Of a stretch of 34,007 nucleotides of DNA, positions 1 to 14,981 are shown piece after piece. This DNA comes from Oscillochloris sp. ZM17-4. GTDB lineage: Bacteria; Chloroflexota; Chloroflexia; Chloroflexales; Chloroflexaceae. The notes under the pieces are model-generated. The model did no database searches. It had not been told where the DNA came from and saw only the letters and a program-made list of their open reading frames with translations. Each line of letters starts with the position of its first letter. The stretch's first letter is position 1. The position numbers and the translations under genes are program-made. The stretch is from contig NZ_JAIEWN010000045.1 of the NCBI RefSeq assembly GCF_019599295.1, forward strand, positions 14,346 to 48,352, written 5' to 3'.

Positions 1-801
1 GATCAGCACCGCCAGCAGCGGCGGCCGATCAAGTTGCATGATCATCTGGCTTAGTACGCTGCCCTTGGTATGGGCCGTCTTTCCCTCGTCATCCTCCAGC
101 CAGAGATTCGTGTAGTCGCCGGTGTGCTGGCCATGGCAGATCAAGCAGAGGATCGTGGGCTGGGCGCGTAGGGCCTCCTGGATCGCACCCAGGGTGGCCC
201 TTCGGTTCATCGCCCCCTCCACGTCACCGATGACGGTGAGTACGATGTCGCCCAGGGCGGCACGCACGCGACCAACCTCGCCATCTACATCGATCTTCGC
301 CATCTTGTAGGTAGCTAGGTCACTCGGGTTGGCGACGACCAGCAGGGCGCGTAGGGAGGGCTTTGGCCCCAGCCTGATCGACCGAGTATCGGGGCTGTCG
401 ATGTAGCGCACTAGGCGCAGGCGCGCATCGCAGGCGAGCGGCACCTGCGTCAGCGGATCGCGTAGGGTCTCCCAGCGCAGGGCGTGGAGGTCTACTGCGG
501 TGGGAGCGAGCCGCAGCCGCAGGCGCAGGGAACGGTCAGCACCGTCGGCCAGCGCACGGGCGCGCTGCCACGCATCACGCAGCCGCTGGTCGGCGAAGAG
601 CTGTTCGGTGAGAGTGTGCCCGTAGGCGACCGGGTCGAGGGCGTGTACGAGCAGCGCGGTAGGATCGAGGGCGACAGCGACATCAGCGGCGAGCGCGGCG
701 TCGGCCTGGCTGCCGGGCTGGGCGAGGCGGGCATCGGCAACATAGCCGGCATCTGCCGGGCGGAGCGCAAGTTCAAGATCGACGGCTTCAGTATCGCGCA
801 T
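1..801 (-). CDS. CHAT-domain (caspase-like) protein, copy 1, C-terminus beyond the window
   Basis: The frame is open from ATG at 801 to the window edge (267 codons), so the C-terminus is not visible. The N-terminal half has the beta-rich lead found in CHAT proteins (DLHALRWETLRDP around residue 105). The second half matches the caspase-like fold, with the histidine motif CLICHGQ near residue 225. The cysteine should lie just past the edge. ATG 801 is preferred over the adjacent GTG 804 because AGGGA lies 6 bases upstream of it. CHAT proteins are cysteine proteases often tied to NTPase, TPR or defence modules; the substrate here is unknown. A paralog lies at 6101-6901, exactly 6100 bases away and without indels, and looks roughly 75-80% identical in protein sequence by eye. 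The gene diverges from the STAND gene at 1412. Confidence 0.8.
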   Translation of the reverse strand, partial: MRDTEAVDLELALRPADAGYVADARLAQPGSQADAALAADVAVALDPTALLVHALDPVAYGHTLTEQLFADQRLRDAWQRARALADGADRSLRLRLRLAPTAVDLHALRWETLRDPLTQVPLACDARLRLVRYIDSPDTRSIRLGPKPSLRALLVVANPSDLATYKMAKIDVDGEVGRVRAALGDIVLTVIGDVEGAMNRRATLGAIQEALRAQPTILCLICHGQHTGDYTNLWLEDDEGKTAHTKGSVLSQMIMQLDRPPLLAVLI

Positions 802-860
802 CACCTATCCCTGGCATGGGCGGGCGGCCCGGCGGAGTGTGCAGAAATCCGATCACCCCC

Positions 861-889
861 ATGATACATGCACAGGCGTAAACTGCATA
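861..889 (-). promoter_or_regulatory. Candidate promoter of CHAT copy 1
   Basis: On the minus strand TATGCA (889-884) and TATCAT (866-861) are separated by 17 bases, which fits a weak -35 and a good -10. The same arrangement, with a better -35, lies upstream of CHAT copy 2 at 6961-6989. Conservation between the paralogs supports function; no transcription data are available. Confidence 0.4.
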
Positions 890-1040
890 GCACACACGCT
901 GCCAAACGGTATTTTAGCCCCAGCCTCAGCCACAGCAATCTGATCGCCACCATGTGCGACTTCCTTCCCCATTCAGATGCCAAAGAAAGCCACGAACGGT
1001 TCAAAATCCGACACGTGAAAATCAACCACCTCCTTGGTCC

Positions 1041-1059
1041 ACTGGCGGATTCCGCCAGT
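1041..1059. repeat. Palindrome core shared with 7036-7086
   Basis: ACTGGCGGA and TCCGCCAGT form a perfect 9-bp inverted repeat around a single T. The same 9-bp arms, there around an A, form the centre of the 25-bp-arm palindrome upstream of CHAT copy 2. Here the outer arms are not preserved, so this is either an eroded copy or the minimal functional core. Confidence 0.7.
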
Positions 1060-1411
1060 CAGATTCTTCCGCGAGACGTTAGCTTTATCGCTGTATGCTG
1101 TAGTAGTAGTATTGGTACTGGTAGATCGGTAACATCGAAAGACGCAATGAAGCAACCCGGAGCTACCTCGCCTCAGCCACCACACAATCTAACCACCACA
1201 GGCAAGACATCCTCGGATGCCCATTACCCGCCTGTTTGATGCGGAGGAGGACAAGATGGTGGCTCATGGCCAGTTTTGGTGACCCAAGCCGAAAGCTGGC
1301 ATCTGATCAGAAAGCGACCCTTGGCTATTTGGCTTCTCTACGCCCTGCCTGAGCATGGCGCTCTGGGGCTTTCACCAAAAGTGGACATGAGCCTGTCATA
1401 TGGAGACAACC

Positions 1412-4105
1412 ATGCAGCCCTTCTACGACTCCTACATTCTTCGCGCACGCCTCTTCCTCCACGATGGGCTCCAGCAATTTGTGTCCCAGCGGCTGCGCGA
1501 TCACTTTGGGAATGCTTGGTGGGAGCAAGGGGTACTGCCGGTTCTCACCGACCACCACTACCAGCCTGAGCGAACGGGGGATGCCCCGGAACAGTGGTTT
1601 ACGTCGCTTGATAGCCGGGTGCTTCTCAAGATCATCAAGGAGACTCGGCATGTCTTCTCCCTCCCGCCTGACTGTCGTCGATTCGTGAATAATGTCTTTC
1701 ATAGCCTCAACCAACTGGCCCACGAGAAGCACTTTGACCGACAGGCGACGCAGGAGACTCTGGAGTGGATGCAGGACTTGCTCACCTGGATGGGCATGCC
1801 CACTCAGGCGCACAAGGTGAAGATGATCGCCAAACAGGCCATGCAGGCGAAGCACGAGGAACTGTCTCTCGATCCTGATGTGGCCGCAGCCCGGCAGCTC
1901 GATGAGGCGAAGCGACGACTCGCCACGCTCCCGCGAAACGCTGTCCCTGCCCCAGCTCCTTTGCCACCTGGCTCGCGGGTACCCTTCGCCCCAAACCCGC
2001 ACTTTGTCGGGCGCACCAGTACGCTAAGCGAACTCGGTGCCGCCCTCCAGGACGGCCAGGCGCGGGTCATCACTGCTCCAGCCAGCTACGGCAAGACCCA
2101 ACTAGCGGCGGAGGTCGCCCACCGCTACGGCCCCTACTTTGCAGGGGGCGTCCACTGGGTCGCTTGTGCCGACCCAGATGCCATCCCCATGTCTATCGCC
2201 GAGTGCGGCGCGGTCATGCATGGGCTCCCCGAGTTCTACGGGAAACTGCCGCTCGATGAGCGCGTGCGCCTGGTGGTGGCGGCCTGGGAGGAGCCGACGC
2301 CACGGCTGATCATCTTCGACAATTGTGAAGACCCGGAGCTTGTGGCCCGCTGGCGTCCGAGAAGCACGGCGGCGCGCGTACTCGTCACATCCCGGCAGCG
2401 ACAGTGGCCATCAGCATTGGGGGTGGGGGTATGCCCGCTCGCCCTCTTGGATCATGATGCCAGCATCGCCTTGCTGCGCCGCCACCGTCCTGATCTCGCC
2501 GCCGATGATGGTGATCTCAACGCCCTGGCCGATCTTCTGGATGGTTTTCCCCTTGCTCTCCACCTCGCTGGCTCGTACCTTGAGCGACAGCAAGGAGGAG
2601 AGTCCGTCGCAACCTATCTCAGCAGCCTGCGTGCCACTGATGTACTGTGGCACCAATCACTGGTGACTGCCTCGCCCTATTCACCGACCGCCTACAACCG
2701 CCCAATCGCCAGCACGCTCGCAGTTGCTTTCCAGCAACTCGATCCCGCGCACCCGATTGACGCCGTCGCCCGCTTGCTATTTGCCCGTGCGGCGCACTTT
2801 GCCCCAGGCGCGCCCATCAATGTCGAAGTTCTCTACTCCACAATCGAGCGCGTATTCAATACGCGGCTTTTGGTACAGAGGCCTCTGTTCGCACGCTACG
2901 AACAGGCGATCAATCGCTTAGTTGACCTTGGGCTCGTGGGCTGGGTCACGGGAGATCGCCCCGTTATCACCATTATCAGCCGCAATGGGGGGATATTCGA
3001 GGTCGAGTTGGACGAGAACGAGACATCGCTAACAGATCGCGACTACGGGGCCATCCGGGTTCATCGGCTTGTTGCCGCATTCGCCCGCGAGCGGGCTGAC
3101 GACCTCATGGCCCATGCGGCAGTCATCGATTCGTTACGTGCCATAGGTGATATGAGTGACGAGATCGGGGCACCTGAGATTTTCGCTTCGATGGACGTGC
3201 ATCTGCGTCACGTGACGATGACGGCGCTCCAGTCAGGCTATGAGCACGCCGCACGACTGGCAGAGTTGACCGGATGCTTCCTCCTGAGCATCGGCGATGC
3301 CTCAGCGGCACTTCCCTACCTAGAGCAAGCGGTGGAGGTCTATCGAGAACGGTCGGACGATCCAGAGACATGGGCCAGATGTCTCGCATGCATCGCCGAC
3401 GCTTATACCCTGTTGGGCGACTTGGATCACGCCTGGGAGGTTGCCCAGGAGGCCCACGCGAACCGAATTAAGGCGATGAAGCCAGTAGGCGAAAGCCTGC
3501 GCCAACTCGGTGTGCTCCTCCATCGACGGGGAGATCTTGATGCCGCCACGACAATGCTCCATCATGCGCTGATTGAGGCGCAGCACGATGACTTCAGCGA
3601 GGCGCCACACGATGACTTCAGCGAGGCGCTGGTCTACACCCCACTCGGCAGCGTTATGCTGACGAAGCAGAAGTGGAACCATGCGGCGTGGTACTACCGT
3701 AAAGCGATTGAGTTAAGCGCCGACATCATTTTCTGCGGCTGGTTCCCGGCTGAACAGGCGATAATGCACCACGGACTTGGTGTGGCCCTCCGCGAACTGG
3801 GCCAGTATGAGGACGCCCGCAAAGAGCTTGAACATGCGCTCCAGATTCGGATCGATGCGGGTCTAGAGTATCACCCTGACATGATCGCAACGCTCCACGA
3901 CCTTGCCCGCCTGGGACTTGCCGCATCGTGGTGGGAAGAAACCGAGGCTTGGCTCGCACAGGCGAACGACCACATCCACAGGGCTGGATCTGCGGGCCAC
4001 ACCGCTGATCACCTTGAACTGGAGGCAAAACGTAAGAAGGCCCTGCCTCGCCGGTCGCAGCAACAGACCAGGGATCGCAAGTCGCACAAGCGGAACAAAC
4101 GATGA
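1412..4105 (+). CDS. STAND-type NTPase with HEPN-like N-terminus and TPR-like C-terminus
   Basis: This 897-residue protein starts at ATG 1412, chosen because GGAGA lies 5 bases upstream; an in-frame ATG at 1400 lacks this. Residues 1-135 resemble a Swt1-type HEPN domain, with LNQLAH at 98-104, but leucine sits where the RxxxxH arginine is expected. An NB-ARC/AAA NTPase follows: Walker A APASYGKT (222-229, irregular), Walker B LIIFDN (299-304), an arginine-containing VTSRQRQW sensor-like strand, and GFPLA (379-383). From about residue 610 the protein is helical TPR-like repeats, probably a sensor. STAND proteins oligomerise on ligand binding, and many serve in signalling or antiphage defence; that role is inference here. 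It diverges from CHAT copy 1, which may be its partner. Confidence 0.85.
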   Translation: MQPFYDSYILRARLFLHDGLQQFVSQRLRDHFGNAWWEQGVLPVLTDHHYQPERTGDAPEQWFTSLDSRVLLKIIKETRHVFSLPPDCRRFVNNVFHSLNQLAHEKHFDRQATQETLEWMQDLLTWMGMPTQAHKVKMIAKQAMQAKHEELSLDPDVAAARQLDEAKRRLATLPRNAVPAPAPLPPGSRVPFAPNPHFVGRTSTLSELGAALQDGQARVITAPASYGKTQLAAEVAHRYGPYFAGGVHWVACADPDAIPMSIAECGAVMHGLPEFYGKLPLDERVRLVVAAWEEPTPRLIIFDNCEDPELVARWRPRSTAARVLVTSRQRQWPSALGVGVCPLALLDHDASIALLRRHRPDLAADDGDLNALADLLDGFPLALHLAGSYLERQQGGESVATYLSSLRATDVLWHQSLVTASPYSPTAYNRPIASTLAVAFQQLDPAHPIDAVARLLFARAAHFAPGAPINVEVLYSTIERVFNTRLLVQRPLFARYEQAINRLVDLGLVGWVTGDRPVITIISRNGGIFEVELDENETSLTDRDYGAIRVHRLVAAFARERADDLMAHAAVIDSLRAIGDMSDEIGAPEIFASMDVHLRHVTMTALQSGYEHAARLAELTGCFLLSIGDASAALPYLEQAVEVYRERSDDPETWARCLACIADAYTLLGDLDHAWEVAQEAHANRIKAMKPVGESLRQLGVLLHRRGDLDAATTMLHHALIEAQHDDFSEAPHDDFSEALVYTPLGSVMLTKQKWNHAAWYYRKAIELSADIIFCGWFPAEQAIMHHGLGVALRELGQYEDARKELEHALQIRIDAGLEYHPDMIATLHDLARLGLAASWWEETEAWLAQANDHIHRAGSAGHTADHLELEAKRKKALPRRSQQQTRDRKSHKRNKR
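3584..3628 (+). repeat. 24-bp in-frame tandem duplication in the STAND gene
   Basis: The unit beginning CACGATGACTTCAGCGAGGC occurs at 3584 and again at 3608, a period of 24 bases. It adds an in-frame second copy of HDDFSEA inside the TPR-like region. The two copies are almost identical, so the duplication looks recent or variable. Confidence 0.9.
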
Positions 4106-4176
4106 GCGACGATAGGGGCGTATGGTGTCGCCACCATCGCACAGTGTGACGCTGCGGCACCGCAGTTCCGCCGTCT

Positions 4177-4338
4177 CTCGCCGGTGGTGCCGCCAAGGAT
4201 GCTCACCACCACGATCCGCATGCCGTCCTTGGCAAGCATCTGGCGGTCGCGCACCACCACATTGCCCACATCCCGACGGTCGTCCCCGCCCACATAGATG
4301 GAGCCGACAGGGGGCTCGCCGGTGATCGTGCCGAAGCC
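4177..4338 (-). pseudogene. Ribonuclease J C-terminal-region remnant
   Basis: On the minus strand the stretch from 4338 reads GFGTITGEPPVGSIYVGG, then DVGNVVVRDRQMLAKDGM and IVVVSILGGTTGE. This resembles the conserved segment of RNase J just after the nuclease core (typically GxxxVDGxGxGDVGNVVLRDRxxLAEDG). There is no start, an in-frame stop lies 13 codons upstream of the match, and the C-terminal continuation is not recognisable. It lies immediately downstream of, and convergent to, the STAND gene. I infer that a ribonuclease J gene was broken by the rearrangements that built this island. About 100 bases upstream on the same strand encode an unassigned hydrophobic stretch in another frame. 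Confidence 0.55.
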
Positions 4339-4474
4339 AGGGGCGAAACGCCATGATCGTGCGACCCGCAGCGATCAATACCTTATTCTCGGTATAGAAG
4401 ATCACGAGTCCAACCCAGGAGCCCTGGCCCACGTCTGGGGGGCGAGCGCCCGCACCAGGGGAGGAAAAACAGCA

Positions 4475-4513
4475 CAACTAAATGAGTTTAGTTGGGTCGA
4501 ACCGTGCTATACT
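4475..4513 (+). promoter_or_regulatory. Palindromic operator and -10 element upstream of the F420-type oxidoreductase
   Basis: CAACTAAA (4475-4482) and TTTAGTTG (4487-4494) form a perfect 8-bp inverted repeat around TGAG. It is followed 13 bases later by a -10-like TATACT (4508-4513). The palindrome would cover the -35 position, as expected for a repressor of the TetR or MarR type. No regulator gene is adjacent. The interpretation is inference; the inverted repeat is directly visible. Confidence 0.5.
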
Positions 4514-4549
4514 CCCCCCAGAATCCCGCGACCAGCCGAGGCTCCCCCT

Positions 4550-5026
4550 ATGGAAGAGTCCCTGACCATGATCGACGCGCCGATGCGTGCGCCCATGCCC
4601 GCCTGGGTCTACCCCATCCTCAACCCAACCCTGAAGTTCCTCCTACGCTCGCCGCTCCATGGCATCCTGAGCGGCGGTGCCATGATCCTGATCTTTGCGG
4701 GCCGCAAGAGCGGCAAGCGCTACGCGGTCGTGGTGGTCTACCAGGATCTCGCTGGCACGCTCTACACCTTCTCGGCCACCAGCTGGAGCGCGAACTTCAT
4801 CGGCGGGGCACCCGTCGCCCTGCGCCTGCGCGGGAGGCTCGTGCGCGCGACGGCGCGGGTGGTGGACGACCCGGCCCGGATCGGACGGGTGATCCGGCAC
4901 ATGGCGCGCGGGCGGGGCGAGCAGATCGCCACGAACATGGGCCTGATCGGCCACGGCCCCGACGGGGTCGCCCGCCTTCAGATGCCGAAGGGCAGCCGGC
5001 TAGTGGAGTTCACCCTGGAGCGCTGA
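4550..5026 (+). CDS. Deazaflavin (F420)-dependent nitroreductase-family protein
   Basis: The 158-residue product starts at ATG 4550, with an alternative ATG at 4568. Upstream in-frame sequence to 4298 overlaps the RNase J remnant and is unlikely to be coding. The motif GRKSGKRYAVVVVYQ followed by a YTFSATSW segment is typical of the Ddn-type split-barrel family, which binds coenzyme F420 and reduces quinones, nitro compounds or other acceptors. An amphipathic N-terminal helix (WVYPILNPTLKFLLRS) could attach it to the membrane. Length matches the family. A strong palindrome overlaps its probable promoter, suggesting inducible expression. The integrase gene begins 28 bases downstream on the same strand and may be cotranscribed. 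Confidence 0.75.
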   Translation: MEESLTMIDAPMRAPMPAWVYPILNPTLKFLLRSPLHGILSGGAMILIFAGRKSGKRYAVVVVYQDLAGTLYTFSATSWSANFIGGAPVALRLRGRLVRATARVVDDPARIGRVIRHMARGRGEQIATNMGLIGHGPDGVARLQMPKGSRLVEFTLER

Positions 5027-5054
5027 GCGCGCCACGCTGGAGCGGGAGCCGCCC

Positions 5055-6083
5055 ATGTCCAATGCCCTCGCCCGAACCCATCCAATGGAAGACGCTGATC
5101 TCGCTCCGGTCGAACGTGACCCGCTCGCCCTGGCCATCGCCGCCTGGCTCGATAGTAAGCACGGCAAGAGCGGCAGCGCCCGCACCCGCGAGGCGTACGC
5201 CACCACGCTGGCCGACTTCCGGGCGGCTCTGGGCAAGGTGGATCTGGACCTCGACGCCGAGGGCGCGGCGGTGGCCCTGGTCGCGCAGGCGTGGGCGAAG
5301 TCGAGTCGGCGGGATCGCACGGTCAAGCCGAGCACCGTCGCCCTGCGGCTTGCGATTGTGTCGAGCTTCTACGCCTTCGCCCTGCGCCGGAAGCTGTTGC
5401 GCCTGCCCGAAAACCCGATGGATCTGGTGGAGCGCCCGAAGGTTGAGAGCTACGCCGCAGCGCAGGCCCTCGACACCGCAGCCGTGCGCGCAACCCTCAC
5501 CACGCTGAAGGCTGAGGCCGCCGGCGACGGCATGGCGGGCGACCTGGCCGCCCGCGACCTGGCCCTGCTGCGCGTGGCGCTGACGACGGGCCGGCGAGTC
5601 GCCGAGCTGGCCGGGCTGCGCGGGCGCGACCTGGCGATCACCGGCGAGCGGGTGACGATCACCGTGCAGCGGGCCAAAGGCGGCAAGGTGATGCGCGACC
5701 GCCTGGCCGCCGACGTGGCCGCCGACCTGCTGCGCTGGCTGCGCCGCCACCACGGGGCCGAGCTGGGAGACTTGGCGACCGACGCCGCAATCTGGCCGGT
5801 GCTCAAGGGCGGCGGGGTCGCGGGCCGGGGCCGCATCGGCGCGGCCCTCACCGCCCAAGGCATCGCCGAGGTGGTCGCCCGCCGGCTGAATACCCACCCC
5901 CACGCGCTGCGCCACTCGTTCGCGCAGGCGATGGAGCGGGCGGGGGCCACGGTGAGCACGATCCAGGCCCGCCTCGGCCACAGTAACCTTGCCACCACCG
6001 GGCGCTACCTCACCCAGCTGAGCCGGGCCGAGAATGTCCACGCCGATGCGCTGGCGCGGGTCTTTGGGACGGGGGAGGAGTAG
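5055..6083 (+). CDS. Tyrosine recombinase/integrase (XerC/D-like)
   Basis: This 342-residue protein has a SAM-like N-terminal DNA-binding domain (about 22-125) and a full catalytic domain. Catalytic residues seen are Arg181 in TGRRVAEL, Lys211 in AKGGK, His283/Arg286 in HALRH, His309 in LGH and Tyr318 in TTGRYL. It catalyses site-specific strand exchange. GGGAG lies 6 bases before ATG 5055. It follows the F420-type gene closely. Its stop is only about 17 bases from the point where CHAT copy 2 loses homology to copy 1, so the integrase module replaced the CHAT 3' end. No attachment-site pair was identified. It could be a housekeeping-type Xer or a mobile-element integrase; the context favours the latter. 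Confidence 0.88.
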   Translation: MSNALARTHPMEDADLAPVERDPLALAIAAWLDSKHGKSGSARTREAYATTLADFRAALGKVDLDLDAEGAAVALVAQAWAKSSRRDRTVKPSTVALRLAIVSSFYAFALRRKLLRLPENPMDLVERPKVESYAAAQALDTAAVRATLTTLKAEAAGDGMAGDLAARDLALLRVALTTGRRVAELAGLRGRDLAITGERVTITVQRAKGGKVMRDRLAADVAADLLRWLRRHHGAELGDLATDAAIWPVLKGGGVAGRGRIGAALTAQGIAEVVARRLNTHPHALRHSFAQAMERAGATVSTIQARLGHSNLATTGRYLTQLSRAENVHADALARVFGTGEE

Positions 6084-6901
6084 CCGTGAGCGACACAGGC
6101 GATCAGCACCGCCAACAGCGGCGGTCGGTCGAGCTGCGCGATCATCTGGCTCAGCGCGCTGCCCTTGACGTGGGCGGTCTTGCCCGCATCATCCTCCAGC
6201 CAGAGGTTCGTATCGTCGCCGGTGTGCTGGCCGTGGCAGATCAGGCAGAGGATCGTCGGTTGTGAACGGAGGGCATCCTGGATCGCGCCCAGGGTAGCCC
6301 TTCGGTGCAGCGCCCCCTCCACGTTGCCGACGACCATGAGCGCGATGTCGCCCAGGGCCGCACGCACGCGGCCCACCTCGCCATCCACGTCGATCTCGGC
6401 CATCCTGTACGTACTCAGATCGCTCGGGCTAGCGACGACCAGCAGGGCGCGCAGGGCGGGCTTCGTCCCCAGCGTGATCGGTCGCGTATCCGGGCTATCG
6501 GGGTAGCGCACGAGGCGGAGGCGGGCGTCGGTTGCCAGCGGCACCTGCGTCAGCGGATCGCGCAGGGTCTCCCAGCGCAGGGCGTGGAGATCGCCAACGG
6601 TTGCGGCGAGGCGAAGACGCACACATAGGGGGAGGTTCGCGCCATCGGCGACCCGCCGTGCATCGCGCCAGGCGTCACGTAGCCGCTGGTCAGCAAAGAG
6701 TTGCTCGGTGAGCCTACTCCCATACGTATCGGGGTCGAGGGCCAGCGCCAGGAGCGCGGTTGGGTCAAGGGCAACCGGAACATCTGTCGCAGGCACGCTG
6801 GGCGCTTGGTTCCCTGGTTGCTCAATGCGGGCATCGGCGACGTAGTGATCGCCTGACAGGCGGATGGTGAGTTCGAGATCGATGGCTTCGGTATCGCGCA
6901 T
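6005..6901 (-). pseudogene. CHAT-domain protein, copy 2, truncated at the integrase junction
   Basis: From ATG 6901 (AGGGA 6 bases upstream) the protein follows copy 1 without indels through residue 267, including the histidine motif CLICHGQ. It then reads LIACVAHG, which may retain the catalytic cysteine. Below about position 6084 the reading frame runs antisense through the last codons of the integrase gene and stops at 6005. The last roughly 27 residues are therefore not CHAT sequence, and everything after the active-site cysteine is missing. The first 270 residues are well conserved, so the truncation is recent or the fragment is still used. It diverges from the membrane-protein/dual-protease pair. 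Confidence 0.75.
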
Positions 6902-6960
6902 CACCGATCCCTGGCATGGGCGAGCCGCCCGGCGGAGTGTGCAGAAATCTGATCACTTGC

Positions 6961-6989
6961 ATGATACATGCACAGGCATAAACTGTATA
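6961..6989 (-). promoter_or_regulatory. Candidate promoter of CHAT copy 2
   Basis: On the minus strand TATACA (6989-6984) and TATCAT (6966-6961) are separated by exactly 17 bases. They match the -35 consensus at 4 of 6 and the -10 at 5 of 6 positions. The element is conserved in position upstream of CHAT copy 1. Confidence 0.45.
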
Positions 6990-7035
6990 GCACACACGCT
7001 GTCAAATCGGATTGCAGCCCCAGCAATCTGATCGC

Positions 7036-7086
7036 GCCCACTTCTTCGCCCACTGGCGGAATCCGCCAGTGGGCGAAGAAGTGGGC
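7036..7086. repeat. Long perfect palindrome upstream of CHAT copy 2
   Basis: Arms 7036-7060 and 7062-7086 are perfect 25-bp inverted repeats around a single A at 7061. The inner 9 bp are also found at 1041-1059. No T-run follows on either side, so a simple terminator is unlikely. It lies in the divergent region between CHAT copy 2 and the membrane-protein gene. It could be a REP-like element, a protein-binding site or a structured RNA leader. Confidence 0.85.
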
Positions 7087-7537
7087 ACAATCACCTATCA
7101 TGCAAAGCCGTGCCCACCAAGGATATGCCATCGACGCGAGGGTTTAGGTGAGCTAATGGCGCTACGGAGTACCCTATTTTCAGGTCGGAGAATCGAGTAA
7201 TTCGAGCGCCGCAAGTGCATACGTCGAGGCGACAAGGCCATACCCGCGCTGTGGGGCGAGCATGGCGTATACGATGGATAACAAATGAACGCGAGGAGCT
7301 GACGATGTTATGGCGCTAGCTCAAGCAACTGAGCTTGAATGGTTCTACTGCACTGAAAGCTTATTGCTCTCGTTGTTTTAAGCCAGCAGAGCGCGTGTCC
7401 TCGCTTGTTGGTGATTCCTTGTGGGTAATTGTAGTGGTCAGGTAGCTAGACAAACACTTTACACTTCGGTATTATTCTTGTTGAGGCCATGCACTATTAC
7501 TCTTGCATTGTTCGCTCACTGCATGAGAGAGGAATCC
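7087..7537. other. Non-coding stretch before the membrane-protein gene
   Basis: These 451 bases contain no credible gene. Composition is less GC-rich than the neighbours, especially from 7320 on. No promoter could be assigned with confidence. The ribosome-binding site GAGAGGA at 7526-7532 serves the GTG start at 7538. Confidence 0.55.
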
Positions 7538-9034
7538 GTGTCTCATCGTATTACACTCGTGCTTGCACTCGGCCTCTTGGTGAGTCTGTGTATCGGAACA
7601 GTCGCGTACGCTCAAGAGGCCACTCCACCAGCTACCGACGGCGCGCTGCTGATTGAACCGAGCCGCCTGACCATCGCTACCGACGGCGGATGCCCACCCA
7701 CGTTCATCCCAGGGAGCACGCCCTGTACCCAGATTCACCAACTGACGCTGCGTGCGACCCGTGTCATCACCAACGTCACCGCGATTACCACCGACCTGCG
7801 CCGTGCCGATGCGCAGGCTATCTTTCCGGCAAACGCCATCCATCCCACCTTCATCCGAACAGAACTCATGACCGACACGGTCGTGACACTGACGCTTGCC
7901 CTGGATATGGCCGCCGCCCCTGCGGGTGAGTACACCGGCGATCTGCTGCTCGTGTACCCCGGAGGTGTGCGCAGCCTCCCGCTGACGGTGCGGCTCCGGC
8001 ACTGGTGGCTGCCGCCGCTGGGGCTCCTGGTGGCCGTGCTCCTGGTTGGCCTCGCGTTCGCACAGTACCGCGATCAGCAGCGACCTCGCGACAGCCTGAT
8101 CGTCCAGGTCGGCTATCTTGTCGATCAGATGAGCCGCGACACGATGCTCATCACGGCCTTCCAACATCCCCTTGATCGACAGATTGCTGCGAGCAGGCAG
8201 GCGCTCCAGTTCGGTCACCCGGCAGATGCCCAGACGGCACTCAGCGCGACGCAGGAACTGTGGGGGCGCTGGAGGGCCTACCGTGACGACTGGATCACCC
8301 TCGACACCCATCGAACACAGCTCCTTCATGCACTTGACACCCCGCCGGCAGTCGCATCGGGCGTGTTCCGGGACTCATTGGAGCAAGCACTGGTGCAGAT
8401 CGAGCGCAGCCTGGGGATGAGCGCGCAGCCTACGACGGTGCAGGATGACCTCGCCAAGGTGCGCACCGCACTTGAGGCATTCCGTACAAGTGCGGCGAAG
8501 ATCAGCGCCCTCCTCAGACAGATTGACACCCTCGATAACGCTGCCGTAGCTCAGCTACGAACAAGCGTACAAGAGCGCCGACAGCAACTCTCCCTGCTCA
8601 CCATGGAAAACACGGACGGTATGGCGCAGCTGATCACGCTTCTGGCAAACGATGCGCACGAGGTCCAGAACGCGATGCTTGCGCACTCCGATAATGGGAT
8701 GAACCAGGTTCTCGGCACGTCTTCAGGTGGGCCTGAGGGGGCGGCATCCCCATTGCCGCCGTCTCAGCTCCCAGAGCTCGGGACTCTGTTTGGCGCAACG
8801 ATCAGCGACAACCCAACGGCAGATGCGGCACGGGCGCGCCGTCGGATCCTGATCTTCGGTATTACCTCGCTGATCATCACTGCTGTTGGGCTCGTCCCGC
8901 TCGGCTTCAATCAGCTCTATGTCACAAACCCCATCTTTGGAGCCAATCCCTGGCTCGATTACCCCGCCTTGATCTTCTGGGCGCTGGGGATCGAGGGCTC
9001 GCGCGAGACGATCTTGGGCATGCTGTCCGGATAG
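7538..9034 (+). CDS. Signal-peptide/membrane protein with cytoplasmic helical region, unknown function
   Basis: GTG 7538 is chosen because GAGAGGA lies 5 bases upstream and it yields a clean signal sequence (MSHRITLVLALGLLVSL, cleavage near AYA-QE at 25); ATG 7523 is the alternative. The 498-residue product has an exported beta-rich domain with two cysteines (about 28-150), then a membrane segment (about 155-175, LGLLVAVLLVGLAFA). A charged, mostly helical region of roughly 260 residues follows, probably cytoplasmic, and a second hydrophobic segment lies near 436-460. I do not recognise the family. It is followed after 75 bases by the dual-protease gene on the same strand. The arrangement suggests a membrane receptor or anchor for that protease; this is inference. 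Confidence 0.7.
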   Translation: MSHRITLVLALGLLVSLCIGTVAYAQEATPPATDGALLIEPSRLTIATDGGCPPTFIPGSTPCTQIHQLTLRATRVITNVTAITTDLRRADAQAIFPANAIHPTFIRTELMTDTVVTLTLALDMAAAPAGEYTGDLLLVYPGGVRSLPLTVRLRHWWLPPLGLLVAVLLVGLAFAQYRDQQRPRDSLIVQVGYLVDQMSRDTMLITAFQHPLDRQIAASRQALQFGHPADAQTALSATQELWGRWRAYRDDWITLDTHRTQLLHALDTPPAVASGVFRDSLEQALVQIERSLGMSAQPTTVQDDLAKVRTALEAFRTSAAKISALLRQIDTLDNAAVAQLRTSVQERRQQLSLLTMENTDGMAQLITLLANDAHEVQNAMLAHSDNGMNQVLGTSSGGPEGAASPLPPSQLPELGTLFGATISDNPTADAARARRRILIFGITSLIITAVGLVPLGFNQLYVTNPIFGANPWLDYPALIFWALGIEGSRETILGMLSG

Positions 9035-9109
9035 GTTGTGCCCCCATCACGCGCGCGGTGTGATTGGCGACGTTCGCAATGACCGCCTGACGCAGAGGAG
9101 CTATATGTC

Positions 9110-12100
9110 ATGCAGCTGGATGATCTGACCCCACTCGACCAGATCCCGGCCTTCACGGCGGTGGATCGGGAGGCACTTTCTCCCTACTGGATCACCACCG
9201 CTGAGGAGTTTATCGCCACCGCCCGGCTTCGCAATGGGCTGTCGACGCTGGGGACGCTACTTGCCCGTACGCCCAAGGCGATGCAGGAGCTGTTCGATGC
9301 CGCCACGCAAGCCTCGCGTCTTGCCGCAGCGTTCACCATCGGAATGGTTCGTGACTACCCCACGGGCCTCATCCTCGATGATGACGGTGATACGCCTGCG
9401 GTGGCATTCACCCTGCCGACCACCCCGCTTCCGCCAGGAGCCTCACTGCTTTCCCGGTTGCCCCCAGTCCAAGATCAAGGGAAGCGGAACACCTGTGTCG
9501 CCTTCGCCCTGGTGGCGATGGTGCAGTGCCTGCGGGATGAACCGACCGATCTCTCTGAGCAGTTCCTCTTCTGGCGCAGCAAGATGCACGACCAGATCCC
9601 GCATGACCCGAGTGGGACGAAACCGCGTGTGGCTGCGCAGCAACTGGTCGATGTTGGGGTCTGCCGTGAGGAACTCTGGCGCTACCACGCCTATGAGATC
9701 GGTGATGGCGGCGTGGGTGGCGGCGCTCCGAACATCGGCCAAGGTCCGCCGCCCAACCCCGAGGCGCTCTTGGCTGATGCCGCCGGGCGACGGATGGGTG
9801 GCTATCGACATATCGACAAGCGGAATGTACACGCCATCCGGGCCGAGATCGCGGCCGGGCGGCCCGTGATGATCGGGCTACGTATTGCGACCTTTTGGAG
9901 TCACTCGACTCAGGCGACGAAGCTGGGGCGCGTGCGCCGACTCCTGCCGGGGGAGGAATGGGGCGGGGGCCATGCCATGTGCGCCGTCGGCTATCGTAGC
10001 GATGCGGGTGCCCCCGGCGGCGGCTACTTCATCGTGCGCAATAGCTGGGGTGCAGGCTGGGCCAGCGAGAACCCGGACGGGCCGGGCTACGCGCACGTCC
10101 CCTACCAGCTGATCGCTGACGAGAATTCAGTCGCGCTGGTGCTCGAAGCTTCCTTCACGCCGCGCCGCGCCGGGTCGTCGGAGCAGACGACTGAGCCCGC
10201 CATCGTACCGCTGGGAAGTGAAGGGGGTGTAGTCGGCGGGTCTCCTGACGACGACTCCTTGCTCGATGCACTGATCGCCCAGGCTGCGGGACTGAGTACA
10301 GCGGGGATGAGCCGTCTGATCGTCGCACTGGCAACGCGTCTTGCGACCAAGCTAGGACACCCCCCCACGACGCCACCGATAGCACCGCCGGTGGGCGAGC
10401 AGGAGTACAGCCCTTCAGCCGAAGATTCAGCGGCTCCCTCAGTGCCATTGGTCGGCGAGACCCACGAGTTTATTCAGTATGGCGGCGAGTTGATTATCCC
10501 CAACGGCATTGACCCCACCATTGGCAAGGCGCGCTACCGCTTCGACATGACCAACGCCCGTGCGATTGCAGCCGTCAACCGCTGGGGCGATACCGCAAGC
10601 GAGCGCCTACTCCACCGGCAGGTCGCCAAGCGCGATGAGCCTACCGCTGGTATGATCCACGGCTTCTCGTACGACCAGCTCGACCGGAACATGAAGGATG
10701 CGCAGAGCAATGCAGGCGCTGGATGGGGCCTGGTCGTGCCCGCCGATGAGGACGCTGCCATCCTTAAGGCGCTCACGCCGCTGATCACACAGCGCTGTGC
10801 CGATCAGGGAATCGCTCCTCCGAATCTCACCTTCGAGTCGGGCGAGACCTGCGGGGCCTGGCTGCGTCGGGTGGGTGGCGACAATGCTATCAAGGCACCG
10901 ATGCAGGGCAGTAGACCCATTCCGATCTTTCTCTATGATGCACAGGCGGTTGAAGGTGCCAGCCGCTGGTGCGCTCGCCACGGGGTAACCATCAACCCCG
11001 TCGATCCCCGGCGTGGCGTGCCCTTCTACCTGCTGCTGGTGGGCCGACCTGGGGCGCGCATGGCCGGCGATCCGCATATTCCGTTCTCTTTTCAGTACGA
11101 TCTTGATTTTTACTGGGGCGTGGGCCGACTCTGTTTCACGGATGCCCACGGCAACCATCGCTACGATGCCTACACGGCCTACGCCGAGCGTCTGGTGGCG
11201 ATTGAGCGCGGCCAGACGCCCGCCCGCACCCGGTCGGTCGCATACCTCGCGACACATCACCCACTCGACCCATCAACCGCGCTGAGCGCCACCGAGCTTG
11301 TTGGGCCGCTTCTGCACGGGGACGCTGGCCGTGAGCCGCTGGCCAACCGCTTTGGGTTCACCACCTATGATATGACGACCAAGGCGCATGCGACCAGGGC
11401 GAGCCTGGAGCGGCTGCTCATCGGGGCTGATGCCGCTGATCGACCTGCGCTGCTCTTTAGTGCGACCCACGGTATCGACCTCCCGCTTGGCCACCCGGAT
11501 CAGATCATGCAGCAGGGCGCGCTGCTCTGCCAGGACTGGGACGGGCTGGATCTGCCGCAGCGGACGCACTGGCTGGCCGGCGAGGATCTGCCCGATGCGA
11601 CGGATGTTGCGGGGCTGGTGGCGGTGTGCTTTGCCTGTTTCGGCCTCGGCTGTCCGGCGCACGACCAGTTTCGCTTCGAGCGCACGACGCCCCCCCAAGC
11701 CATTGCCCCGTATCCATTCGTGGCTCAGCTACCACAGCGGCTGCTTGAGCGGGGCGCGCTAGCGGTGCTCGGCCATGTTGACCGGGCGTGGAGCTACAGC
11801 TTCCGTGACGAGGTGCAGAAGGTGCCCGGACAGTCCCAGGCATTCGAGGATCTGCTTGGCGGTATCCTCGATGGCAAGCGACTGGGCGAGGCGACCGACC
11901 AGTTCAACACGCGCCAGGGACAGACGGCGATGGATCTGACCGATCTCCTGGACAACTACCGCTTTGCGGCTGCGAATGGAAGCGAACGCTTTGGGCTTGA
12001 AGGAATTGGGCCGCGCTGGGCTGCGTTTAGCGACGCACGTGGCTACAGCTTACTGGGCGACCCCGCCGCACGGCTCCACGTCGAAAATAGAGCGCACTAA
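9110..12100 (+). CDS. Dual cysteine protease: papain-like (C1) domain fused to a gingipain/CHAT-like domain
   Basis: This 996-residue protein starts at ATG 9110 with GAGGAG 9 bases upstream. Residues 1-70 resemble a helix-hairpin-helix module (DUF4332-like). Residues 110-345 are a C1-family peptidase: oxyanion Gln123, Cys129 in KRNTCVAFA, His288 in GGGHAMCAVGY, Asn311 in NSWG. After a proline-rich linker (about 350-450), residues 450-996 carry a second, caspase-clan-like domain. It has the histidine motif FSATHG (His787), a cysteine motif AVCFACFGLG (Cys843 most likely) and the C25-like ending YSLLGDPAARL. There is no signal peptide, so it is probably cytoplasmic. The stop codon lies inside an inverted repeat. 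The membrane protein upstream is the likely partner. The second domain assignment is less certain than the first. Confidence 0.8.
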   Translation: MQLDDLTPLDQIPAFTAVDREALSPYWITTAEEFIATARLRNGLSTLGTLLARTPKAMQELFDAATQASRLAAAFTIGMVRDYPTGLILDDDGDTPAVAFTLPTTPLPPGASLLSRLPPVQDQGKRNTCVAFALVAMVQCLRDEPTDLSEQFLFWRSKMHDQIPHDPSGTKPRVAAQQLVDVGVCREELWRYHAYEIGDGGVGGGAPNIGQGPPPNPEALLADAAGRRMGGYRHIDKRNVHAIRAEIAAGRPVMIGLRIATFWSHSTQATKLGRVRRLLPGEEWGGGHAMCAVGYRSDAGAPGGGYFIVRNSWGAGWASENPDGPGYAHVPYQLIADENSVALVLEASFTPRRAGSSEQTTEPAIVPLGSEGGVVGGSPDDDSLLDALIAQAAGLSTAGMSRLIVALATRLATKLGHPPTTPPIAPPVGEQEYSPSAEDSAAPSVPLVGETHEFIQYGGELIIPNGIDPTIGKARYRFDMTNARAIAAVNRWGDTASERLLHRQVAKRDEPTAGMIHGFSYDQLDRNMKDAQSNAGAGWGLVVPADEDAAILKALTPLITQRCADQGIAPPNLTFESGETCGAWLRRVGGDNAIKAPMQGSRPIPIFLYDAQAVEGASRWCARHGVTINPVDPRRGVPFYLLLVGRPGARMAGDPHIPFSFQYDLDFYWGVGRLCFTDAHGNHRYDAYTAYAERLVAIERGQTPARTRSVAYLATHHPLDPSTALSATELVGPLLHGDAGREPLANRFGFTTYDMTTKAHATRASLERLLIGADAADRPALLFSATHGIDLPLGHPDQIMQQGALLCQDWDGLDLPQRTHWLAGEDLPDATDVAGLVAVCFACFGLGCPAHDQFRFERTTPPQAIAPYPFVAQLPQRLLERGALAVLGHVDRAWSYSFRDEVQKVPGQSQAFEDLLGGILDGKRLGEATDQFNTRQGQTAMDLTDLLDNYRFAAANGSERFGLEGIGPRWAAFSDARGYSLLGDPAARLHVENRAH

Positions 12101-12182
12101 AACGTCGAGGGGCGGATGTGGACGGCGGGAGACAGAAGCGCGAAGGTAGTCGTGCTATCCCTTCCGACGTTTTAGTGCGCTC
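12090..12182. repeat. 93-bp element with 18-bp terminal inverted repeats
   Basis: Arms 12090-12107 (containing AGCGCACTAAAACGTCG) and 12165-12182 are perfect inverted repeats flanking 57 bases. The left arm contains the stop codon of the dual-protease gene. It may be a MITE-like insertion or a large terminator-like hairpin; no T-run follows. The next 188 bases, to 12370, contain nothing recognised. Confidence 0.8.
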
Positions 12183-12370
12183 CCAACAAAGCAAACATGC
12201 GGTTGCCCGTATCCGGCTTCCAGTTCGGAAGCGACTCACCATGACGGCATGTGCTGTGTATTGAAGAAACGACGTGTGTTCTTGCGCAGAGATGAGCAAT
12301 GCATTCACTGGTGGCCTCCAATCTCACCGTCAGTTTCACGTTAAGACATGGTTTCAGAAGCACTTGACAG

Positions 12371-13096
12371 TTGACGGACTTCGCCGCCCACAGCAGCTGG
12401 GTGCATCCGTCGATCGACCGCTACTTCCTGCCGAGCGCGATCACCGCGCAGCTGCTCGTCCGGCTGGGCGTGCCCGCTGACCTCCTGGAGGTGACGGGCA
12501 TCCCGGTGCGCGCCGAGATCGCCGCGCCCAAGGCGCCCGCCGCAATGCGCGCCCGCCACGGGCTGCCGCCGGATGGGCCGGTGATCAGCCTGTTCGGGGC
12601 CGGGATCGAGCCGCAGCGGGTGCGCCTGATGGTTGAGGGGCTGCTCGGGCTGGATGCCCCGCTCACCCTAGTCACGGTCACCGGGCGCAGCGCCGAGCTG
12701 GCGCAGCACCTGGACGGCCTCGCGGGCCACGGGCAGGTGCGCCTGGTCAGGCTCGGCCAGATGGCGTATGTGGACGATCTGGTGGCGGCGAGCGACCTGG
12801 TGATCACCAAGGCCGGCGGGCTGATCGTCAGCGAGGTGCTGGCCCGGCACACCCCGCTGCTGATCATCGACCCCATCCCCGGCCAGGAGGAGTGGAACGC
12901 CGATATGGTCGCCGCAGCCGGTGCCGGAACGCAGCTGCGCATGCCCGAGATGGTGCCCATCGCCGTCCAGGCGCTGCTGGCGCAGCCCGCGCGGCTCGCC
13001 CTGATGCGGCAGCGCGCGGCGGCGGTGGGACATCCCCACGCCGCCGCAGCTATCGCCCGGCGCCTGCTTGCCGACCTGCGCGCGCGCGACAGTTGA
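12371..13096 (+). pseudogene. MGDG-synthase/UgtP-like glycosyltransferase, N-terminal half missing
   Basis: The recognisable sequence begins abruptly at TDFAAHSSWVHPSIDRYFLP, which in this family lies in mid-protein at the end of the N-terminal domain. The C-terminal GT-B domain follows intact: SLFGAGIE, then VITKAGGLIVSEVLA and DPIPGQEEWNA, the nucleotide-sugar binding region. The first codon would be TTG 12371, with a stop six bases upstream and no ribosome-binding site. Roughly 150 residues holding the acceptor-lipid domain are gone. Intact members glycosylate diacylglycerol. The remaining 241 codons are undamaged, so the loss is probably recent. Confidence 0.8.
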
Positions 13097-13116
13097 GCCT
13101 GATTTCGGGCCACAGA

Positions 13117-13293
13117 CTGGATGGCAATGCAGGGCGACTGCAACGTCGCCGCCGGGCGGGGGGCTGGGGATGGCTTCGCCACCCCCAGAGATCTTTTTGT
13201 GGAATTTTGGGCGGCTTCGCCGCCCAAAATTCCACAAAAAGCAGGGGTTGGGGCGTAGCCCCGGGATGTTGCAGTCGCCCTGGATGGCAATGC
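13117..13293. repeat. Nested-hairpin repeat element between convergent genes
   Basis: Three layers are visible. CTGGATGGCAATGC occurs as a direct repeat at 13117-13130 and 13280-13293. CAGGGCGACTGCAAC (13130-13144) and its complement (13268-13282) form 15-bp inverted ends. Inside, 13193-13215 and 13219-13241 form a perfect 23-bp palindrome with loop TTC. Smaller hairpins lie near 13171-13189 and 13249-13263. The element sits between the 3' ends of the glycosyltransferase remnant and groEL. It may be a mobile MITE-like repeat that also acts as a bidirectional terminator. Confidence 0.85.
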
Positions 13294-13322
13294 GCTTCCA
13301 CGTTACGCTTTGCGCTCAGCGG

Positions 13323-14981
13323 TTAGAAGCCCATGCCGCCCATGCCGCCCATGCCATCCATCCCACCGCCGGACATGTCCGGCGCCGGGCTCGCCTCGGG
13401 CAGGTCGGCGATCAGGGCCTCGGTGGTCAGCAGCAGCCCGGCGATCGAGACCGCGTTCTGCACCGCCGAGCGGGTCACCTTCACCGGGTCGACCACGCCC
13501 TGCTCGAGCATGCTGCCATACGCGCCGGTCAGCACGTTGTAGCCGGAGGTGGGGTCGCCGCTCGACTCCTGGTTGCGGCGCACCGTGTCGATGATCACCG
13601 AACCCTCCTCGCCGGCGTTGCGGGCCAGCTGGCGCATCGGCTCCTCCAGCGCCCGCCGCAGGATCTCCACCCCGAAGCGCTCGTCAGCGTTGCAGGTCTC
13701 CACCTGATCGAGGGCTGGGATGACATTGATCAGGGCCACGCCGCCGCCCGGCACGATGCCCTCCTCCACGGCGGCCCGCGCCGTCGAGAGCGCGTCCTCC
13801 ACGCGGTGCATCTTCTCCTTCAGCTCGGGCTCGGTGGCCGCGCCAACCTTGAGGATGGCCACGCCGCCGGCCAGCTTCGCCACGCGCTCCTGCAGCTTCT
13901 CGCGGTCGAAGTCGCTGGTGGTCGCCTCGATCTGGGCGCGCAGCTGCGCGACGCGGGCCGCGATCGCCTCCGGATTGCCGCGGCCCTCGACGAAGGTGGT
14001 GCTGTCCTTGTCGGCGAGCACGCGGCGCGCCCGGCCCATGTCCTCGACCGTCGCGCTGTCGAGCTTGCGGCCGATCTCCTCGGTGATCAGCGTGCCGCCG
14101 GTCAGGATGGCCATATCCTGGAGCATCGCCTTGCGGCGATCGCCAAAGCCCGGCGCCTTGATCGCCAGCACGTTCATGGTGCCGCGCAGCTTGTTGATCA
14201 CCAGGGTGGCCAGGGCCTCGCCGTCCACATCCTCGGCGATGATCACGATGTTCTTGCTGACCTGCAACACTTTCTCGAGCACCGGCAGGATGTCCTGGAT
14301 GCTGCCGATCTTCTTGTCGGTGATCAGGATGTAGGGGTCGTCGAGCTCGGTCTCCATCCGCTCGGCGTTGGTCACAAAGTAGGCGGAGAGATAGCCGCGA
14401 TCGATCTGCATGCCCTCGGTGTACTCGGTCTCGAAGGCGATGCCCTTGCTCTCCTCGACGGTGATCACGCCATCCTTGCCGACCTTCTCCATCACATCGG
14501 CGATCAGCTCGCCGATGGCGACATCGCCCGCCGAGATGCCGGCCACATGGGCGATGTCGGCGCGGTCGCGCACCGGCTTGGACAGGCGCTTCAGATCAGC
14601 CACAATCGCCGCGGCGCCCTTGTCGAGGCCGTGCTTGATCTGCATGGGGTTGGCCCCGGCGGCGACGATCCGCAGGCCCTCGGCGACGATCGCCTGGGCC
14701 AGCACCGTGGCGGTGGTGGTGCCGTCACCGACCACATCGTTGGTCTTGGTGGCGACCTCGACCAGCAGCCGGGCGCCCATGTTCTCGAAGGGGTCCTTGA
14801 GCGAGATCTCTTTGGCGACGGTGACACCGTCGTGGGTGACCGTCGGCGTGCCGTAGGCCTTGCTGATCGCGACGTTGCGCCCGCGCGGGCCGAGCGTGGT
14901 CTTGACCGCGTCGGACACGATATCGACGCCGCGCTTGAGCGCGTGGCGCGCCTCTTCGTGGAATAGGATCTGCTTCGGCAT
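13323..14981 (-). CDS. groEL: Chaperonin GroEL (60 kDa, Hsp60)
   Basis: The 552-residue product has full family length. It begins [18 protein letters not shown] at ATG 14981. ATP-binding motifs [11 protein letters not shown] and [16 protein letters not shown] are present, as is the apical-domain segment. It ends in the Met/Gly-rich tail MGGMGGMGF. It forms the double-ring cage that folds proteins with GroES. GAGAGGA lies about 12 bases upstream, a slightly long spacing. groES lies 104 bases upstream on the same strand, with a repeat-rich hairpin region between. No CIRCE operator was found near the operon. Confidence 0.98.

Follow-up and report, generated by a model that had tools for sequence, protein, structure and literature searches.

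We analysed a window of 34,007 nucleotides (nt) from Oscillochloris sp. ZM17-4, a filamentous member of the Chloroflexales (Chloroflexota), comprising positions 14346–48352 of contig C123 in a draft genome of 6.69 Mb and 182 contigs (G000; contigs of this genome are designated C, loci L, and genomes G). The left part of the window carries two copies of the 5′ end of a CHAT protease gene, each divergent from different neighbors. CHAT copy 1 (804 to 1, minus strand) faces P0002 (1412–4105, plus strand), which encodes a HEPN-STAND-TPR protein, and CHAT copy 2 (6904 to 6099, minus strand) faces P0006 (7421–9034, plus strand), a membrane protein by its structural model, and P0007 (9110–12100, plus strand), a dual protease. 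The original prediction, made from the sequence, took the two loci for a modular signaling or defense system in which a conserved CHAT head is combined with exchangeable divergent partners. Both divergent arrangements were confirmed by domain assignment, and the evidence for modularity and for a defense-like setting held, but the proposed CHAT-partner module did not; the exchange was found instead at the N terminus of the STAND-TPR proteins.

The P0002 open reading frame opens at 1400. Pfam recognized HEPN_Swt1 (2e-11) and TPR_12 (1.7e-13), with the head at approximately 1454–1792 and the STAND core and TPR from approximately 1919 onward. From approximately residue 174, P0002 is 39%–42% identical to CHAT-headed proteins, and to an HTH-headed protein encoded on C109 of the same genome, over their STAND-TPR parts. 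The presence of a head, a STAND core, and repeats in one protein was confirmed, the core by its homology to NB-ARC-bearing proteins. A similar linker, LPPGSRxPFxxNPxFVGR, occurs in P0002 and in the CHAT- and HTH-headed proteins, and the heads differ: within this single genome, the chassis carries HEPN on C123, CHAT on C171 (locus L032), and HTH on C109. As judged from these sequences, the exchangeable unit is the head (HEPN, CHAT, or HTH) on a STAND-TPR chassis, which is opposite to a scheme in which CHAT stays constant and its partners change. No relatives of the P0002 HEPN head were found in 40 other genomes of the family; pair 1 is therefore not a family-wide arrangement. P0002 scored 171.9 bits against NF040586 (cut-off, 300), and PADLOC assigned it no Avs or other defense model; its one match was to a TPR model and was weak (17.3 bits).

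Both CHAT copies scored above the PF12770 cut-off of 24 bits (copy 1, 37.8 bits, profile positions 3–193 of 289; copy 2, 37.7 bits, positions 4–199), and in both the profile coverage stops by approximately position 199. The CHAT domain was present twice, as had been claimed, but not as two whole genes. Copy 1 consists of the N-terminal 268 codons only: directly outside the window on its left lie exactly 100 N (L030, 14246–14345), entered at codon 268, and a run of 100 N usually denotes a scaffold gap whose true length is not defined. The sequence of copy 2 has no gap. When it was aligned with complete homologs, which continue for approximately 90 further CHAT residues past the catalytic Cys and then into STAND, its similarity to the family was lost directly after that Cys (LIAC). 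The family part of copy 2 ends 16 bp from the integrase stop codon, and its unrelated tail of about 25–30 codons, reaching 6005, runs antisense through the 3′ end of the tyrosine recombinase gene. A completeness test of the CHAT domain thus failed for both copies; copy 2 has the His and Cys and lacks the last third, and the Cys of copy 1 would fall inside the gap. We are reasonably confident that copy 2 is a broken gene; the chief alternative is a misassembly.

The two copies are paralogous. Their 5′ halves are 78% identical in amino acid sequence, with a synonymous divergence (dS) of 0.81 and a ratio of nonsynonymous to synonymous divergence (dN/dS) of 0.16, and the 5′ regions are 79% identical over 925 nt (E = 0), far above chance and in agreement with the homology originally proposed for these halves. 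Both reading frames are free of stops. By these measures, the copies appear to be old paralogs that have evolved as proteins, and the dS value led us to reject the idea that the CHAT 5′ end was duplicated in tandem recently. Fragment matches of the same type of CHAT were also seen in the nearest genome, G004 (C315 and C713). The gap at copy 1 (window position 1) and the break of copy 2 (6099) map to nearly the same CHAT position, only a few bases apart. Collapsed repeats were considered as a cause of this shared break codon and rejected, as the exact match there extends for only approximately 14 bp. A reading of copy 1 through the gap into WD40 repeats as a single gene was also rejected; the 100 N are a nominal filler, and any reading frame carried across them is arbitrary.

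The neighborhoods of 74 distinct CHAT genes from this genome and its relatives were then compared. We called the genes of the flanking loci with our own codon-usage script, and some of the loci had been picked because they hold P0006 homologs. Partner classes were based on profile matches and on P-loop and WD40 patterns, which makes the counts of NTPases lower bounds; in at least 36 of the 74, an NTPase or WD40 partner was either fused to the CHAT gene or encoded directly downstream of it in the same orientation. Among close homologs of the window copies, CHAT overlaps a same-strand STAND-TPR gene by 4 nt at L185, L188, L192, and L193 and is fused to STAND-TPR at L187, L189, L190, and C171. 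A divergent upstream neighbor was present for 19 of the 74 genes, and the script classed it as STAND in just one case, which is copy 1 of the window itself. The script is blind to caspases and nSTAND1 fragments, and these were read by hand; by Pfam, the other divergent partners included a transposase, a Mur ligase, and an Fe-S protein, as well as the nSTAND1 fragment at L249 and, in a related genus, g4, an EAD2-caspase. The original prediction had expected divergent STAND or protease neighbors to recur beside CHAT homologs elsewhere. For pair 1, the sole STAND case is the window, and for pair 2, the dual-protease ortholog in G004 (84% identity) has no CHAT gene and only a 29-amino-acid remnant of the membrane protein beside it. 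The divergent module is refuted, by that measure, in this group.

P0006 matched no family, and neither PADLOC nor NCBIfam holds a model that matched P0006, P0007, or CHAT copy 2. The AlphaFold model of P0006 (predicted local distance difference test score [pLDDT], 74; predicted template modeling score [pTM], only 0.46) shows N-terminal hydrophobic helices, an outer beta domain, a transmembrane helix, a helical bundle, and two C-terminal helices. Fifteen homologs were found at 19%–28% identity; the nearest all lie beside CHAT or caspase genes, and the more distant ones have housekeeping neighbors. The only recurring likeness to pair 2 comes from genus g4, where three genomes (G008, G023, and G030; loci L224 2410–7674, L225, and L226) carry a CHAT-EAD2-SAVED gene facing an EAD2-caspase and a P0006 homolog across 137–143 bp. 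The CHAT and the protease of this locus both differ from those of pair 2, and it was at L224 alone that Pfam was used to identify the EAD2, SAVED, and caspase domains. The locus resembles an intact protease relay triggered by a nucleotide, and these neighborhoods suggest that P0006-type proteins may serve clan-CD proteases.

P0007 combines a papain-like domain (residues 117–319; PF00112 Peptidase_C1, 1.4e-9) with a C-terminal domain of clan-CD, gingipain-like fold (residues 591–996). In the latter, His787 and Cys843 are invariant across 34 aligned sequences. The model (pLDDT, 80) matched gingipain with a Z score of 18.9 over 276 residues (root-mean-square deviation, 4.1), and separase and TPR-CHAT with Z scores of 13–14. 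A profile of this domain returned nothing useful against PDB sequences, so the fold search was needed; Pfam lists no clan-CD family for P0007, which could reflect either divergence or absence, the two not being separable here. Homologs of P0007 other than the G004 ortholog adjoin recO-like and PH-like genes. On C172 of the strain's own genome (L202, 6136–15393), four paralogs of the gingipain-fold domain stand in tandem, one with a papain domain, again with recO-like and PH-like genes adjacent. The papain/gingipain-fold double protease is widespread, its second domain lacks a family name, and it merits testing.

The promoter regions of the two CHAT copies had also been described as homologous. 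This held on the CHAT side only: the approximately 340 bp nearest the facing genes are not common to the two loci. Approximately 120 bp of non-coding DNA 5′ of CHAT is 88%–90% identical at three places, at 805–932 for copy 1 (minus strand; approximately 120–128 bp are common to copy 2 and C171), at 6905–7028 for copy 2 (minus strand), and at L032 6414–6541. In the third of these, on C171, 14 CHAT codons remain, opposite the CHAT-STAND-TPR gene. The similarity stops approximately 50 bp past a short palindrome, and the shared DNA is possibly a preserved regulatory element or a recombination joint.

On the copy 1 side, this palindrome is perfect (CACTGGCGGATTCCGCCAGT, 1039–1060), with 9 exact sites in 6.7 Mb compared with 0 for the control. 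Beside copy 2 lies a near-perfect palindrome with 32-nt arms that are 94% complementary (7029–7093, core CACTGGCGGAATCCGCCAGTG); folded as RNA, it gave −57.3 kcal/mol (z = −13.2). Across the genome, the perfect palindrome spans approximately 21–27 nt around the core CACTGGCGGAWTCCGCCAGTG, and the 9 exact sites rise to 12 when up to 2 mismatches are allowed, on four contigs only. Besides the two window sites, it was located at L087 7197 and 11716, L088 7593–15340, L089 440, and L032 6568. It lies near three of the four P0002-type STAND genes, and its contigs bear ParA/ParB-like and mobilization-like genes. Elsewhere in the family, it was found in two other genomes only, both of the same genus. 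On C109 (L087, 7377–10957), an HTH-STAND-TPR gene is followed by an Mrr restriction endonuclease gene, and two of the palindromes, 4.5 kb apart, flank the pair.

A gene fragment, a short open reading frame, and a recombinase gene lie between P0002 and CHAT copy 2. A decayed RNase J gene fragment (4178–4396, minus strand) is 85% identical to an intact RNase J-like open reading frame at C117 40184–40398. P0003 (4550–5026, plus strand) is a short open reading frame, weakly similar to deazaflavin nitroreductases (TIGR00026, 17.5 bits; cut-off, 46.35), and its DNA has an 83% paralog on C155. The tyrosine recombinase (5055–6083, plus strand; PF00589 Phage_integrase, 3.5e-19) is XerC/D-like, and the XerC and XerD models matched below their cut-offs. 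To the left of CHAT copy 1 (L030, 2758–9435) are PNP_UDP-NB-ARC and NB-ARC-TPR genes, which make the locus a cluster of conflict genes. An Rfam scan of window positions 1–14000 returned no matches.

Taken together, the region is likely to be a shuffled island of conflict (immune-like) genes, with a STAND-TPR chassis that bears exchangeable heads, broken CHAT genes, and a divergent order that is a by-product rather than a functional unit. The recurring machine would join a STAND NTPase-TPR chassis to an N-terminal effector head that can be exchanged, either within one protein or as the products of two overlapping same-strand genes. In described STAND proteins, the TPR end binds a signal of the invader, the STAND core oligomerizes, and the head acts; by analogy, the TPR part here would most likely sense an invader, the STAND part would oligomerize, and the head, once activated, would act, with cell death as the presumed output. 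P0002 would be the intact representative at this locus, its HEPN head taking the place of the CHAT of its relatives. CHAT copies 1 and 2 would derive from paralogous genes with CHAT heads, of which they keep the 5′ ends; copy 2 would have snapped behind its catalytic Cys by rearrangement beside the integrase, and copy 1 would have been left unfinished at the assembly gap. P0006 and P0007 would form a separate membrane-protein/dual-protease pair, perhaps a membrane-anchored proteolytic switch, that became a neighbor, and the divergent pairs would then have arisen by accretion in a shuffled defense island.

Several observations weigh against this interpretation. Pfam called no NB-ARC domain on P0002, and its P-loop is altered (APASYGKT). 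HEPN domains are usually RNases, and by eye the P0002 HEPN domain has no Arg at the usual R-x4-6-H place, so the head may be inactive as an RNase; given the apparent loss of the motif Arg together with the altered P-loop, its role may instead be to recruit another effector. No NTPase partner was seen for about half of the CHAT genes under our crude classification. The dN/dS of 0.16 and a frame that stays open over 268 codons show that both 5′ halves were long protein coding; copy 2 was therefore broken recently, is an assembly chimera, or is still working. Finally, the non-coding 5′ DNA (88%–90%) is better preserved than the synonymous sites (dS, 0.81), which hints that it may have retained a regulatory role.

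A rival model builds on the original prediction: CHAT would be a constant protease head, each divergent partner would be its exchangeable effector, and one control region in the intergenic DNA would drive both together. It is favored by the homology of the CHAT 5′ halves and of 120 bp of 5′ DNA, although the genes they face are unrelated, and by the third copy of that DNA opposite the CHAT-STAND-TPR gene of C171. A divergent STAND gene once in 74 CHAT genes, a HEPN head unique within the family, a G004 dual-protease ortholog with no neighboring CHAT, two incomplete CHAT genes, and an unshared partner-side stretch of approximately 340 bp make it highly improbable. The incompleteness could itself be an assembly artifact, the CHAT genes being whole in the living cell and either the copy 2/integrase junction or the copy 1 gap being a misjoin in a 182-contig draft. 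The 100-N gap directly left of copy 1, the nearly identical end points, and the lack of stops in either copy would fit, but copy 2 is contiguous, the fragments beside it are diverged from their paralogs (85% and 83%) and so are not collapsed repeats, and the copies match exactly over only approximately 14 bp at the breakpoint; we consider a misjoin unlikely.

The palindromes and the g4 locus each offer a further explanation. If the short palindromes were exchange sites of a mobile element that shifts defense cassettes, the CHAT 5′ copies would be scars of such exchange. Their small number and confinement to four contigs, their position near three of four P0002-type STAND genes, the ParA/ParB-like and mobilization-like genes of those contigs, the pair that brackets HTH-STAND and Mrr on C109, and the tyrosine recombinase in the window all point this way. 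Neither excision nor empty sites are directly evidenced, the stretch shared among contigs is only about 21–27 bp, and the palindromes could instead be operators or terminators, which leaves the idea quite unlikely. There is also little chance that CHAT copy 2, or an intact allele of it, forms a membrane-linked relay with P0006 and P0007 in which one protease activates another. In its general form, P0006-type proteins would be the shared partner or substrate of Chloroflexales clan-CD proteases, with a CHAT gene opposite a caspase or dual protease and P0006, degraded in the window and intact in g4. The facing CHAT-EAD2-SAVED and EAD2-caspase genes with their P0006 homolog, in the three g4 genomes, and the company kept by the nearest P0006 homologs speak for a relay; against it are the different CHAT and different protease of g4, the housekeeping neighbors of distant P0006 homologs, the incomplete CHAT copy 2, and the lack of any EAD in window proteins by Pfam at E ≤ 1, an EAD2 pair being present at L224. 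We therefore retain the shuffled island with head exchange on the STAND-TPR chassis, and the two loci serve as a warning that conserved 5′ halves opposite unrelated genes need not form a module and can be debris of recombination.

The original prediction knew of no described system with these arrangements, which was an overstatement. HEPN(Swt1)-STAND-TPR proteins, such as Npun_F6454, are already listed (PMC3710099), and P0002, with the same order of HEPN, STAND ATPase, and TPR, is a further member of that kind; it differs in that no S1 domain was found, its HEPN domain apparently lacks the Arg, and it stands alone in its family. P0002 and its CHAT-STAND-TPR relatives also share the three-part plan of Avs, bNACHT, and NLR-like STAND proteins (Avs and bNACHT are summarized in PMC10907252), with varying heads on one chassis, but PADLOC gave no Avs-type match and the P-loop of P0002 is altered. 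Of the FxSxx-COOH TPR proteins (NF040586), the STAND-TPR protein beside the close CHAT homolog at L185 is a match (423 bits, above 300), whereas P0002 falls short at 172. Craspase TPR-CHAT and SAVED-CHAT likewise couple a clan-CD protease to a sensor, and g4 has a CHAT-EAD2-SAVED gene, but CHAT is N-terminal here, no Cas7-11 was seen, and there is no SAVED domain in the window. The C-terminal domain of P0007 resembles the gingipains (clan CD, C25) in its fold and its conserved His and Cys, except that it is fused to a papain-like domain and matches no Pfam family. The closest setting is that of the NTP-dependent conflict systems of multicellular bacteria, Chloroflexi included (PMC7159879; PMC8195603), among them the EACC1-caspase and ternary systems, in which peptidases, STANDs, TPRs, PNP-STANDs, and membrane proteins are mixed between close relatives; of their core pairs, MoxR-vWA, DO-GTPase-GAP1, and EACC1-caspase were not seen in the window. 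Possibly new are the dual-protease family, the g4 locus of CHAT-EAD2-SAVED, EAD2-caspase, and P0006 homolog, and the palindrome, which is rare and lies close to three of the four chassis genes. Head swapping on a STAND-TPR chassis is a known theme in multicellular bacteria, and Oscillochloris sp. ZM17-4 provides a clean local case, with HEPN, CHAT, and HTH heads exchanged on one chassis inside a single filamentous bacterium.

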